Positions 56,922 through 61,937 of a stretch of DNA of 64,000 nt are shown here, in pieces; positions within the stretch are counted from its first letter, which is position 1, and every line of letters begins with the position of its first letter. A program made the translations under genes and the position numbers. The notes beneath the pieces were generated by a model that saw only the letters and a list, made by a program, of their open reading frames with translations, was not told the DNA's origin and ran no database searches. Source of the stretch: Bacteroidota bacterium. GTDB taxonomy: Bacteria > Bacteroidota > Bacteroidia > B-17B0 > Aurantibacillaceae. Location: contig JAAFIQ010000001.1 in the NCBI GenBank assembly GCA_013298715.1, positions 310,001 to 374,000 on the forward strand. Reading direction: 5' to 3'.

Positions 56922-57599
56922 ATGAGTAAAAAAGGATTTTTAAAATCATCAATCGGAAAGAAATTTTTAATGGGAGCTACAGGCTTGTTTTTGATTACGT
57001 TTTTAATTGTTCACGTAGGTATTAATTCATTAATATTTGTGAATGATAACGGCGAAACATTTAACGCTGCAGCACATTTTATGGCAACCAACCCAGTAAT
57101 ACGCTTTGTAGAAATTGGATTGTTTGTAGGTTTATTATTACACATTTTTCAAGCACTCGTATTAACTTTGGAAAACCGTAAAGCACGCCCTGTGGCTTAT
57201 GCACAAGTTAATGGTGCCGCAAACAGCAGTTGGTATAGCCGTAGCATGGGTATTTTAGGCTCATTACTTTTAATTTTTTTAGTTGTGCATTTATCACATT
57301 TTTGGGTTGGTACTAAGGTTGCTGTTTTTACTGGTAAAGCCGATGAGCACGATACTTACAAAGAAATGCAAGCCTGTTTCTCTCATTTATATATTGTAAT
57401 TATTTATGTTATTGGTGTTGCATCCCTGTTGTATCATATCTTACACGGCTTTCAATCTGCTTTCCAAACACTAGGGTTAAATCACAAAAAGTACACACCA
57501 CTAATTAAAAAAACTGGTATCTGGTTTAGTGTAATAGTTTGCGCTTTATTTGCCGCAATGCCTATTGCAATGTACGTTTCATCTTTAAAAAATAATTAA
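56922..57599 (+). CDS. sdhC: Succinate dehydrogenase/fumarate reductase cytochrome b558 subunit
   Basis: Membrane anchor that passes electrons from SdhB to menaquinone and binds haem b. 225 residues with five membrane segments (about 12-32, 65-87, 107-127, 155-177, 197-217). Conserved His residues lie in FLIVHVGINSL, LLLHIFQALVL, VVHLSHFWVG and YHILHGFQSAF. This is the Bacteroidota/Wolinella-type b558 single-subunit anchor. It leads a unit of sdhC, sdhA, the inserted gene pair and sdhB. Confidence 0.95.
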   Translation: MSKKGFLKSSIGKKFLMGATGLFLITFLIVHVGINSLIFVNDNGETFNAAAHFMATNPVIRFVEIGLFVGLLLHIFQALVLTLENRKARPVAYAQVNGAANSSWYSRSMGILGSLLLIFLVVHLSHFWVGTKVAVFTGKADEHDTYKEMQACFSHLYIVIIYVIGVASLLYHILHGFQSAFQTLGLNHKKYTPLIKKTGIWFSVIVCALFAAMPIAMYVSSLKNN

Positions 57600-57613: not shown

Positions 57614-59602
57614 ATGGCTAGTTCTTCAAAATTAAATTCAAAAATCCCCGATGGTGTATTAGAAAACAAATGGACAAAATACCGTTCTACTGTTCCGCTT
57701 GTAAACCCTGCCAATAAACGTAGTTTAGAGGTATTGGTGGTTGGTTCAGGATTAGCTGGTGCTTCTGCTGCTGCTACTTTAGCCGAGATGGGTTATAAAG
57801 TAAAAGTATTTTGTTTTCAAGATTCGCCACGCCGCGCTCACAGTATTGCAGCCCAAGGTGGCGTTAATGCTGCAAAAAATTACCAAAACGATGGTGATAG
57901 TGTTTATCGCTTGTTTTACGACACCATAAAAGGTGGCGATTACCGCGCACGTGAAGCCAACGTGCATCGTTTAGCTGAGGTGAGTGGCAATATTATTGAC
58001 CAATGTGTTGGCCAAGGTGTACCATTTGCACGTGAATATGGTGGCACATTAAGCAATCGTAGTTTTGGTGGAACACAAGTACAACGTACCTTTTACGCAG
58101 CTGGTCAAACAGGACAACAATTATTATTAGGCGCTTATTCTGCTTTACAACGTCAAGTTGGTATGGGTGCGGTTACTTTATTAGCACGCCACGAAATGAT
58201 GGATGTTGTAACCATTGATGGCAAAGCACGTGGTATTATTGCCCGTGATTTAATTAGTGGTAAATTAGAAAGACATTTTGGACACGCAGTTTTATTATGC
58301 ACGGGTGGTTACGGTAATGTATTTTATTTAAGTACCAATGCCATGGGAAGCAATGTTACCGCGGCCTGGAAAGCACATAAAAAAGGTGCATTTTTTGGAA
58401 ATCCATGTTTTACTCAAATCCATCCAACGTGTATTCCTGTTAGTGGCGACCATCAATCAAAATTAACGTTGATGAGTGAATCGTTGCGTAACGACGGACG
58501 CATTTGGGTTCCTAAATCAAAAGACGACAAACGTAAACCTACCGATATTCCTGAAGAAGAGCGTGATTATTTTTTAGAAAGAAGATATCCTGCCTTTGGA
58601 AACCTAGTGCCGCGTGATGTTGCTAGCCGTGCTGCCAAAGAGCGTTGCGATGCGGGTTATGGCGTAGGTACCAGTAAATTAGCCGTTTATTTAGATTTTG
58701 CCTTTAATACAGAACGTTATGGTAAAATAGAAGCAACTAAGAAAAATATTCAAAACCCGAGTAAAGATGAAGTTATGCGTTTGGGTAAAGACGTTGTGAA
58801 AGAAAAATACGGTAACTTGTTTGATATGTATGCGCAAATTACTGGTGAAAATCCTTACGAACAACCAATGCGTATATACCCAGCTGTGCATTATACAATG
58901 GGTGGCCTGTGGGTTGATTATAATTTAATGACAACAGTACCTGGCATGTATGCTTTGGGCGAAGCTAACTTTAGCGACCATGGCGCAAACCGCCTAGGTG
59001 CTAGTGCCTTAATGCAAGGTTTGGCCGATGGGTATTTTGTAATTCCTTATACAATTGGCGCCTATTTAAGCGAAGAGATTCGCACAAAAGCAATTCCTAC
59101 AGATCATCCTGCATTTGTTGAAGCTGAAAAAAATGTTCAAGAAACGTTAAATAAATTTTTAAATATTAAAGGCACTAAATCAGTTGATTATTTCCACAAA
59201 CGTTTAGGTAAAATTATGTGGGATAAATGTGGTATGGCGCGCAGTAAAGATGGATTAACGTGGGCCATTGCAGAGATTCAAAAATTACGTAATGAATTTT
59301 GGAGCGATGTGCGTGTGCCAGGTGATGCTAACGAATTTAACCCTGAACTTGAAAAAGCAGGCCGTGTTGCAGACTTTATTGAGTTAGGTGAATTAATGTG
59401 TGTGGATGCGCTTAACCGTAATGAAAGTTGTGGTGGTCACTTCCGCGAAGAATACCAAACTGAAGAGGGCGAAGCTTTACGTGATGATGAAAATTTTGCT
59501 TACGTAGCCGCTTGGGAATACAAAGGTGTAAGTCAGTTTGAATTACATAAAGAAGAATTGAAATACGAGAATATTAAAATTGCACAGAGATCTTATAAAT
59601 AA
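57614..59602 (+). CDS. sdhA: Succinate dehydrogenase/fumarate reductase flavoprotein subunit
   Basis: Oxidises succinate to fumarate with covalent FAD. 662 residues. [18 protein letters not shown] near 44 is the FAD fold; [18 protein letters not shown] near 75 carries the flavin-linking His; [17 protein letters not shown] near 154, TQIHPTCIP near 269, [11 protein letters not shown] near 294, and [10 protein letters not shown] near 425 are active-site blocks. [20 protein letters not shown] near 451 binds FAD. Length is in the normal range for b558-type SdhA. Stop at 59600-59602 is followed by only three bases before the inserted ATPase gene. Confidence 0.97.
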
Positions 59603-59605
59603 GGT

Positions 59606-60721
59606 TTGAAAGAAAACAGATTAATAATTAAGAATTTTGGCCCTATTAAACACATTGATATTCCTATTAGGAAAATAAATGTGTTGATAGGAGATCAGGG
59701 TACAGGGAAAAGTACCGTGGCCAAGGTTTTGGCTTGTTTAATTTCAGCGGAATTTTTGTTATTGTATAAATCTACTAAGTTTAATTTGTTTGAGAAATAT
59801 AAGCTAAATAATTTTCTTGAGAAAAAAACCTATATAGAATTACAACAAAATGGAGTAAAAATCACTTATGACAACAAAAAATTCGATGTTCATGTAAATA
59901 ATTCAGCCAACTCGGAGTTTCTAAAATTTCTTAACAATTACACTAAATTAATAAATAGCATTGGATCAACTGATAAAAATGACTTTTTACTTGGTTTTAG
60001 AAAAGGACTCGCTAATTTTCCTAACGTATCTTGCTATATTCCTTCTGAAAGGAATATAATTACTTCTATAGGTAATTCGCCTTTTACTTTTTTCAATTCA
60101 ATTCAAATTTCAAACTACTTGCTTGAGTACGGTGAAATATACGATAATGCCAGAAAAAATTATAACCAATTAAATATTTCAGAATTCGGAATAACTTTTA
60201 AGCATATTAATTCTAAAGATTATCTTGAGCTTAATAATAAAACTATTCTCTTAGATGAAGCCGCTTCGGGTTTGCAAAACATAATCCCAATTTATTTGAT
60301 TTTAACAAATCAAAAGAAAGATGATGTTATGTTAAACATTATTGAAGAACCCGAAATTTCGTTATTTCCGCCATCACAAAATAAACTCGTAAAACACTTA
60401 GTTGAAACATCTTTGATCAAAGGATTTGATTTATTATTAACCACCCACAGCCCTTATGTATTAACAACATTAAACAACTTAATTTATGCGCATAAAATAG
60501 GCTCAATTCGAGGAAAAGGAGCTAAGGCAACGAAAATTATTGAAAAAAGATATTGGTTAAATCCAAAAGACGTTTCTGCTTACATACTAAACGAAAAAGG
60601 CGAGGCAGAGGATTTAATGGATTATGAAATTAATCAGATAAAAGCTGAAAGAATTGATGAAATATCAAGAGTAATAAATAAAGAATTTGATGAATTATTA
60701 AATATTGAATTTAGTACATGA
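59606..60721 (+). CDS. AAA_15-type ATPase inserted in the sdh operon
   Basis: 371 residues from a TTG 3 nt after the sdhA stop. RLIIKNFGPIKHIDIPIRK at 5-23 is the entry strand, Walker A is GDQGTGKS (29-36), and ILLDEAASGLQNIIPIYLIL near 210-229 has the SGLQ signature of this family. Walker B is NIIEEPEISLFPP near 246-258, and LLTTHSPYVLTTLNN near 281-295 is the switch His. This is the SMC-like core of RloC/OLD/AbiL-type defence ATPases. It is co-translated with the next gene (ATGA overlap). Nothing links it to succinate dehydrogenase, so it is best read as a cassette that uses the sdh promoter. No transposase or att site is seen. Confidence 0.85.
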   Translation: MKENRLIIKNFGPIKHIDIPIRKINVLIGDQGTGKSTVAKVLACLISAEFLLLYKSTKFNLFEKYKLNNFLEKKTYIELQQNGVKITYDNKKFDVHVNNSANSEFLKFLNNYTKLINSIGSTDKNDFLLGFRKGLANFPNVSCYIPSERNIITSIGNSPFTFFNSIQISNYLLEYGEIYDNARKNYNQLNISEFGITFKHINSKDYLELNNKTILLDEAASGLQNIIPIYLILTNQKKDDVMLNIIEEPEISLFPPSQNKLVKHLVETSLIKGFDLLLTTHSPYVLTTLNNLIYAHKIGSIRGKGAKATKIIEKRYWLNPKDVSAYILNEKGEAEDLMDYEINQIKAERIDEISRVINKEFDELLNIEFST

Positions 60722-61158
60722 TAGAAAAATTAAATAATTGCCTTAAATGGTCTGATAGACGAAGCAAGCATACTGTTTCGGAAAAAGGAAAAACTTTTGA
60801 GTTGGAGAATCGTTCAAAAGTTTTGGTTGATGTTGTTTCAATTGATGGATGTGTTTATCCAAAATCAAACATAGCGGGCAAAAGATGTGATTACTTAATG
60901 AAGGTAGATGAGAAAAAAAGCTTGTATTTTATTGAATTAAAAGGAACCGAAGTTATTTATGCCTTAAAACAAATTAAAAGTACAGTATCTGAAATATTTC
61001 CTTTTTTTAATACTTATACTTGTAATGCAAGAATTGTATCTTCAGTAGGTGTTCCTGCAATTAACCAGCGAAGCGAATATAGAGAGTTGGCAAAATATAT
61101 TTTTCCAAAGGGAACTATTGAAATAAAAAACAAAATAAAATACTCAGAAATAATTTAG
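60718..61158 (+). CDS. Small PD-(D/E)XK-like nuclease, partner of the sdh-operon ATPase
   Basis: 146 residues; start overlaps the ATPase stop by 4 nt. [11 protein letters not shown] (Asp58) followed by [12 protein letters not shown] (Glu73, Lys75) and YALKQIKST form the D...ExK...Q order of the PD-(D/E)XK nuclease core. The N-terminus is charged ([20 protein letters not shown]); the C-terminus is Lys-rich ([15 protein letters not shown]). The size allows one minimal nuclease domain. The ATPase plus small nuclease arrangement is that of several defence pairs. It ends 14 nt before sdhB. I infer nuclease activity from motif; not proven. Confidence 0.72.
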
Positions 61159-61172
61159 ATATACGAAAAATT

Positions 61173-61937
61173 ATGGAACACGGAAACATGAACCTAACAC
61201 TTAAAGTGTGGAGACAAAAAAACAAAGATACCAAAGGTAAATTTGAAACTATTGAAGCCAAAGGGATTAGCCCTGATATGAGCTTTTTAGAAATGTTTGA
61301 CGTTGTTAATGAAAAATTAATAAACGAGGGTAAAGAACCAATTGCATTTGACCACGATTGCCGCGAAGGCATTTGCGGTATGTGCAGTATGTATATTAAT
61401 GGACGTCCGCACGGACCAAAACAAGGCGTTACCACTTGCCAATTGCATATGCGCAGTTTTAAAGATGGCGATACCATTGTGGTGGAACCTTGGCGCAGTG
61501 CGGCATTTCCGGTAATTAAAGATTTAGCGGTTAACAGAAGTAGTTTTGATCGCATAATGGCTGCTGGTGGTTTTATTAGTGTAAACACAGGTAACGTAAA
61601 AGATGCTAATAGTATTTTAATTCCTAAAGACGATGCCGATACCGCATTTGCTGCCGCAGCTTGTATTGGTTGCGGTGCTTGCGTGGCTGCTTGTAAAAAT
61701 AGCAGCGCTATGCTATTTGTTAGTGCAAAGGTGAGTCAATTAGCTTTGTTGCCACAAGGCCAAATTGAAAAACAAGACCGTGTATTAAACATGGTAAAAC
61801 AAATGGACGAAGAAGGTTTTGGAAACTGTACCAACACTGGTGCCTGTGAAGCCGAATGCCCTAAAGGAATTAGCCTAGAAAACATTGCGCGCATGAACAG
61901 AGAATATGTAAGTGCAAGTTTTACGCAGAATAAGTAG
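61173..61937 (+). CDS. sdhB: Succinate dehydrogenase/fumarate reductase iron-sulfur subunit
   Basis: Carries electrons from FAD to the membrane anchor. 254 residues from ATG. The [2Fe-2S] Cys are in [19 protein letters not shown] near 65-83 and TTCQLHM near 88. The C-terminal ferredoxin-like part has [15 protein letters not shown] near 165 and [20 protein letters not shown] near 212, supplying the [4Fe-4S] and [3Fe-4S] ligands. Length and order are normal for the b558-type family. It is separated from sdhA by 1570 bp holding the ATPase/nuclease-like pair. A palindromic element follows. Confidence 0.97.

Follow-up and report, generated by a model that had tools for sequence, protein, structure and literature searches.

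Septu (PtuA-PtuB, which also supplies the effectors of retrons Ec78/Ec83) and PARIS (AriA-AriB) each combine an ATPase with a partner effector, and in both the ATPase assembly holds the effector and activates it on an infection cue. PtuB of Septu is an HNH nuclease, and AriB of PARIS is a TOPRIM/DUF4435 protein. PDC-M29 is a further pair, listed in PADLOC as a phage defence candidate and made of an ATPase (A) and a small effector (B). Here we describe a pair of this type in a 64,000-nucleotide stretch of a Bacteroidota bacterium (the window; GCA_013298715.1, contig JAAFIQ010000001.1, positions 310,001 to 374,000). An ABC-ATPase gene and a gene for a putative PD-(D/E)XK-type nuclease are lodged in the succinate dehydrogenase (SDH) operon, in the junction between sdhA and sdhB (the slot). 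What is new is the lifestyle: as far as sampled, a candidate defence pair that is exchanged horizontally keeps to one junction within a core operon.

The host operon is of the b558 type according to the NCBIfam subfamily models for SdhA, SdhB and SdhC. The gene of the cytochrome b558 subunit, sdhC (56922..57599; TIGR02046, E 6.5e-50, 170 bits), precedes sdhA (57614..59602; flavoprotein subunit; NF005749, 1181 bits), the left flank of the slot, and sdhB (61173..61937; iron-sulfur subunit; NF005746, 439 bits) is the right flank. The ATPase gene (59606..60721; 371 aa, TTG start) begins 3 nt (GGT) after sdhA. Its stop codon overlaps the start of the effector gene (60718..61158; 146 aa) in a 4-nt ATGA, located by direct reading at 60718..60721, and the effector gene ends 14 nt before sdhB. 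All five genes are on the + strand. An earlier reading of the letters without database searches (the sequence-only reading) had proposed two genes between sdhA and sdhB with this direction and these spacings, which was confirmed to the base. The GC (guanine plus cytosine) content was 28-29% in the pair, against 40-41% in sdhA and sdhB and 32.5% in the window. No second copy of the pair was found in the source genome, where two other weak ATPase matches were at chance level (E 0.12 and 0.39).

The ATPase matched AAA_15 in Pfam (72.2 bits against a cut-off of 32.1; E 8.3e-20), and its best PADLOC match was PDC-M29A (E 4e-46), with the AriA profile also matching (E 8e-21). Conserved motifs were located on the + strand by comparison of 15 slot ATPases. 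Walker A, GDQGTGKST, occupies residues 29-37 (59690..59716; G29, G34, K35, S36 and T37 invariant), and Walker B, IIEEPE, residues 245-250 (60338..60355; E247, E248, P249 and E250 invariant). What we take to be an ABC signature-like motif, SGLQ, is found at residues 221-224 (60266..60277; S221 and G222 nearly invariant), and the presumed H-loop is T280-H281 (60443..60448; T280 invariant, H281 nearly so). In fold, the predicted model (predicted local distance difference test, pLDDT, 84.1) comes nearest to PtuA, which occurs in Septu and retrons, to SMC/Rad50 heads and to AriA. Foldseek returned 384 PDB matches at E <= 0.001, the best being PtuA (E 1.5e-9). The best VIA row was likewise PtuA (9nnb_C; Z 17.7, root-mean-square deviation, rmsd, 3.9, 261 aligned), in a ranking with many ties within 1-2 Z of the top and SMC chains within 1 Z; the AriA structure gave Z 15.8 (rmsd 4.3, 243 aligned). 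Judged by its motifs and predicted fold, the protein is an ABC-ATPase of the Rad50/SMC-like kind.

The effector had no Pfam match. Only three columns were invariant among 15 slot effectors, and they form a putative catalytic D58...E73-x-K75 (60889..60942, + strand), the order expected of PD-(D/E)XK nucleases. In the predicted model (pLDDT 93.5, predicted template modelling score, pTM, 0.89) these residues adjoin strands 59-63 and 68-74. The VIA rows included Can2 (Z 6.3, rmsd 4.3, 126 aligned), EndoMS (Z 5.8), Cdn1 (Z 5.8), the small subunit of R.BspD6I (Z 5.5) and FokI (Z 5.1), all below Z 8 and all presumably of the PD-(D/E)XK superfamily; absence of a protein from the VIA lists was not counted as evidence. 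Searches of Pfam, PADLOC and NCBIfam gave neither an HNH nor a TOPRIM/DUF4435 match, and the D-ExK motif was present. The assignment as a putative nuclease rests on motif and conservation, with the predicted structure agreeing. The sequence-only reading had named a defence-type ATPase with a PD-(D/E)XK-like partner, which the PADLOC and Pfam matches, the invariant motif and the predicted folds bear out. Glu73 and Lys75, which it had singled out for mutation, are both invariant, as is D58. It had also asked whether the small protein has a nuclease fold; the model is confident, and its top rows are mostly nucleases at middling Z.

The slot pair shares its gene order with PDC-M29, and its adjacent genes match the A and B profiles. 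By these profiles, which have no curated cut-off, 15/15 slot ATPases matched PDC-M29A and 13/15 effectors matched PDC-M29B (E <= 0.01). However, the slot clade is separate from the clade of the best PDC-M29B scorers (L100-L106, L118, L119), both being starred in a 92-row tree. The match of the window effector to PDC-M29B is weak (E 1.8e-7), and a whole-genome search with that profile missed the window copy at E <= 0.001. Because the slot ATPases lie outside the clade of the best PDC-M29B scorers, we filed the slot pair, on these sequence comparisons, as a divergent sister subfamily of PDC-M29 and not as PDC-M29 proper. The ATPase fold and the combination of an ATPase gene with a small nuclease gene are shared with Septu, but the slot effector is PD-(D/E)XK-like, and the PtuA match is unspecific given SMC chains within 1 Z. 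PARIS likewise joins an ABC-ATPase to a partner effector, but the slot effector matched no AriB-type family in Pfam, PADLOC or NCBIfam.

Defence systems nested within other immune systems are reportedly described in a 2024 preprint by Payne and colleagues, cited in PMC13092281. The slot pair is also a guest inside an operon, as is a canonical PDC-M29 pair found between hsdS and hsdR (L217), but its host is a housekeeping operon of respiration. PMC5635113 (2017) describes accessory genes that turn over between conserved neighbours without a visible mobile element; the present slot differs in that it separates the genes of two subunits of one enzyme and is kept by one clade across families. In a literature search with preprints outside its scope and few subscription papers within it, PDC-M29 was named nowhere and no title or abstract reported a defence pair in an sdh operon. 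PADLOC has 'phage defence candidate' as an established label (PMC11514479).

To survey the slot, a collection of species genomes was scanned by pattern with three ATPases, and the best 80 of 116 relatives were taken. Thirteen of these 80 were located between sdhA and sdhB (L120, L121, L122, L125, L127, L128, L131-L135, L137 and L196); L120 and L121 come from G064 and G050. Adding the window, G139 (L114) and G193 (L201) brings the slot pairs to 16, all in sdh orientation. The pair is more than a chance arrangement, since homologous pairs occupy this slot, in one orientation, in 16 assemblies. The records, mostly metagenome-assembled, include the names Chitinophagaceae, Flavobacteriaceae and Crocinitomicaceae. 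The gap from sdhA to the ATPase gene is 3 to 67 nt, and the 4-nt ATPase/effector overlap recurs in 7/14 other slot loci (effector starts chosen by script). At L132:7755-10023, a 515-aa open reading frame (ORF) without Pfam match and a DUF1016_N piece lie between effector and sdhB.

A first tree contained 92 ATPases; L108, L109, L111, L112, L113, L116, L151 and L199 were left out as truncated, broken, odd or duplicate, and L117 because it had no match to the ATPase. The 15 slot ATPases formed one clade in it, with a Shimodaira-Hasegawa approximate likelihood ratio test (SH-aLRT) value of 99.8. In a second tree of 101 ATPases the dropped rows were restored except L117 and the pair L111 and L113, which stand for the same places as L118 and L119; L109 entered as two pieces, and G193 and L239 were added; the 16 slot ATPases again grouped together (SH-aLRT 94.9). 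No non-slot ATPase fell inside the slot clade in either tree. With profile A3, the top three copies among 395 genomes of the class (558, 446 and 410 bits) were in the slot and the next (294 bits) was not; within the order of the window, copies of 420, 415 and 410 bits were in the slot and the next, of 277 bits, was not. The other top copies were in the profile; G193 was absent from it, so that its slot position was a fair prediction. Slot ATPases served as seeds in the search for relatives, a choice that favours the finding of slot copies but not the absence of close non-slot relatives. As far as sampled, the members of the clade are confined to one slot.

The order of the window consists of one family with 87 genomes, of which 85 had sdhB. 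The sdhA-sdhB junction was measured in 82, the window included; G070 (no sdhA within reach) and G054 and G056 (sdhB cut at the contig end) lie outside the count. A class-wide junction query matched 370/395 genomes, and junction sizes were counted for the order. Fifty-four junctions were of 0-128 bp, one of 229 bp, 20 of 415-615 bp and four of 1120-1183 bp, and three contained the pair. In most measured junctions of the order, sdhA and sdhB thus lie close together, in line with the contiguity that the sequence-only reading had held, and far from standing at this place in all relatives of the order, a case which that reading had raised, the pair was present in three junctions from three genera (window, G064 and G050). 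Its further proposal, that the pair is retained because loss could damage sdh, was not supported, since the pair is missing from most of the order's junctions and its alleles have been exchanged.

The 20 junctions of 415-615 bp carried 23S_rRNA_IVP-type ORFs, some of them broken. The type was called by Pfam on three and by profile in four genomes (one common to both), and by eye in the remainder. The four genomes checked had 4 to 7 IVP copies each, one copy in each lying at the sdhA-sdhB junction; the genome of the window had no copy in the profile check. The junction thus admits several guests, the pair being one of them.

The IVP-type ORFs were seen at L012, L013, L016, L021, L033, L038, L040, L051, L052, L054, L059, L061, L063, L066, L067, L070, L079, L081, L085 and L088, several with inverted-repeat-like ends by eye. 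Four junctions from two genera (L036/L095, L072, L083 and L086) contained a 362-aa ORF whose start resembles a signal peptide; the one copy tested had no Pfam match. In some genomes of the same genus, repeat-like sequences of about 80 bp occupy the gap (L024, L027 and L029).

Comparison of the pair with its flanks showed that the two have different histories. Identity matrices of the slot loci gave Mantel correlations of 0.85 for SdhA-SdhB, 0.19 for SdhA-ATPase (p 0.075) and -0.05 for ATPase-effector. In approximately unbiased (AU) tests, with partial SdhA for L121 and L196, the ATPase data rejected the SdhA+SdhB topology (log-likelihood difference, dlnL, 190; p 7e-94), and the SdhA+SdhB data rejected the ATPase topology (dlnL 350). 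L122 has SdhA 90/91% identical to that of L127/L128 but an ATPase only 39/37% identical, and the ATPases of L127, L128 and L196 share 54-55%. Between L132 and L134, the identity is 94% for SdhA, 55% for the ATPase and 16% for the effector. The three ATPases of the order are 37-46% identical and their SdhA 87-89%. The ATPases are also mosaic: windowed identity of L134 to L135 is 80% at the N-terminal end and 38% at the C-terminal end, and that of L134 to L137 is 80% and 78-88% at the two ends and 27-43% in the middle. L134 and L137 have a common effector (74%), which shares 11-21% identity with the effectors of the remaining slot loci. Because the C-terminal part of the ATPase goes with the effector in these two loci, the sequences suggest that this part docks the effector.

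Since the ATPase tree conflicts with the SdhA/SdhB tree, the ATPases are mosaic and effectors are swapped, these sequence data indicate that the pair is exchanged and recombined between species, yet stays in its slot. One ancient insertion followed by vertical descent, very many losses and fast evolution would agree with the single clade and with a partial fit to taxonomy, in which the three pairs of the order group together, as do the Flavobacteriaceae rows with L114 and L133. We disfavour this account as very unlikely: AU tests reject the topology of each gene for the other, the SdhA of L122 and L127/L128 are 90/91% identical while their ATPases are 39/37% identical, mosaics and effector swaps occur, and 79/82 junctions of the order lack the pair. 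Vertical inheritance as the main account was rejected by the identity comparisons of SdhA, ATPase and effector and by the AU tests. A phage- or plasmid-borne pair was also considered and rejected, the matches being weak (three phage, 23-30%; three plasmid, 25-28%; five viral-contig, 24-26%).

The other cargo of the junction bears on how the pair enters it. The pair might be brought in by a site-specific mobile element, or by an integrase located elsewhere, that targets the junction; the IVP-type ORFs in 20/82 junctions, the 362-aa ORF in four, and the DUF1016_N piece and 515-aa ORF beside the pair of L132 would fit such a route. So would L125, where a weak, A/T-rich inverted pair of 24 nt (75% complementary) is located near both ends. 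However, no recombinase or integrase gene was found between sdhA and sdhB in the slot loci inspected, four of the five loci scanned (window, L120, L127 and L135) had no repeat spanning both ends, and the distance from sdhA to the ATPase gene is variable. We regard this route as unlikely. We take homologous recombination through the flanking sdhA and sdhB to be the likeliest transfer route; alleles would land in the same place because recombination uses these conserved flanks.

Relatives outside the slot have other neighbours. By Pfam, these were aconitase, uvrA, lysS, recJ, ccmC/ccmE, E1 dehydrogenase, lpxD, transaldolase and hsdS/hsdR, at one locus each. The hsdS/hsdR locus holds the canonical PDC-M29 pair of G393 (L217) in a type I restriction operon, a location which, on sequence grounds, supports an immune role of the wider family. 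The upstream neighbour was co-directional in 24/30 sister loci (five opposite, one at a contig edge) and 10/12 canonical M29 loci, leaving aside the frame-broken L229. A general habit of living in housekeeping operons is not claimed for the family, as co-directional upstream neighbours are common in both sister and canonical loci. Non-slot sister pairs in Niastella/Pseudobacter (L123, L124 and L126) lie 86-175 bp after aconitase, a gene of the tricarboxylic acid cycle (by Pfam in L123, by eye in the others). In Emticicia (L145), a related pair stands in the cytochrome c maturation cluster, preceded by a CcmC-like gene and followed by CcmE.

These locations bear on the idea that the pair was co-opted for a task of SDH or respiration, such as guarding electron transport or regulating sdh, in which case its position would reflect function and not a transfer route. 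All 16 known clade members occupy the slot and run in the direction of sdh, over SdhA identities down to 67% (without L196, partial SdhA), and the three non-slot sisters mentioned above follow aconitase, as such a task would lead one to expect. Nevertheless, the pair is patchy (3/82 junctions), G416 has contiguous sdhAB although its genus mate G193 has the pair, and the ATPases of the order have diverged far more than its SdhA, with effectors swapped as in conflict genes. Other relatives stand by uvrA, lysS, recJ, ccm, lpxD and hsd genes, so that the family does not need SDH. Co-option is, in our estimate, quite unlikely.

In the window, TTG is the only possible start of the ATPase gene, because the TAA of sdhA stands in the ATPase frame one codon upstream. 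In the other copies, an ATG was sought in the 25 codons that precede the first conserved strand, L229 (frame-broken) and L230 (no readable start motif) being outside the count. No ATG start was found in 9/16 slot ATPases against 0/41 relatives elsewhere (Fisher 1.3e-6, kinship uncorrected). The nine are spread over several branches and use TTG (window, L122, L125, L127, L128 and L196) or GTG (L133, G139 and G193); in G139, translation might instead begin at an ATG in the same frame 45 codons upstream, within sdhA. This bias suggests that non-ATG starts may damp translation in a strong operon. Promoter- and terminator-like sites were at chance level in scans that would miss some Bacteroidota promoters. 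Constant co-expression of the pair with sdh, as the sequence-only reading had it, is plausible.

We consider it probable that the slot holds an anti-phage-type pair, PDC-M29-like, which is transcribed with the respiratory operon, kept at low dose, gated by its ATPase and swapped through its flanks. The ABC-ATPase would act as sensor and clamp and the PD-(D/E)XK nuclease as effector, with an often weak start codon of the ATPase keeping the dose low. By analogy with Septu and PARIS, the ATP-bound ATPase may assemble with the nuclease and keep it inactive; on sensing an infection cue, the ATPase would activate the nuclease and nucleic acid would be cleaved. Alleles would move between species by homologous recombination through sdhA and sdhB.

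Several observations weigh against this reading. PDC-M29 itself is a candidate only. With the effector model, Foldseek found nothing at E <= 0.001, VIA gave Z of at most 6.3, and the non-nucleases acetyl-CoA carboxylase and Gtr1p reached Z 5.0-5.2. The L125 effector is short (115 aa), so not every copy is intact. The slot clade is unstarred (94.9) once truncated and long rows are restored, ATPase identities of 30-40% weaken the deep branches, and the start-codon comparison carries its uncorrected kinship. As to exchange, the Mantel correlation of SdhA with the effector is weakly positive (0.22, p 0.035), the window SdhB is closest to its own genus (95-96% identity), and no close donor-recipient pair for flank recombination was found. 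The module may instead be an 'allele' of the core operon, with one ancestral entry, variants traded among Bacteroidota families within the junction, dependence on sdh expression or on SDH (e.g. sensing the collapse of respiration in infection) and adaptive weak starts; we hold this as a doubtful possibility.

Searches for defence genes usually turn to islands, prophages and mobile elements; the slot points to a class of hiding place that a search based on islands misses. Whether the position serves transfer, expression or function is made directly testable by moving the pair. With their weak start codons, the slot pairs also allow a simple test of whether dangerous effectors have their dose set by the host operon.

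Another AAA_15 family, whose partner has about 200 aa, was seen at L160, L167, L171-L174, L176, L177, L179, L184 and L186. Its members in records of Bacteroidota, Ignavibacteriota and Limnohabitans are close relatives, L171 and L177 being about 0.02 changes per site apart; this points to recent wide transfer or to contaminated bins.
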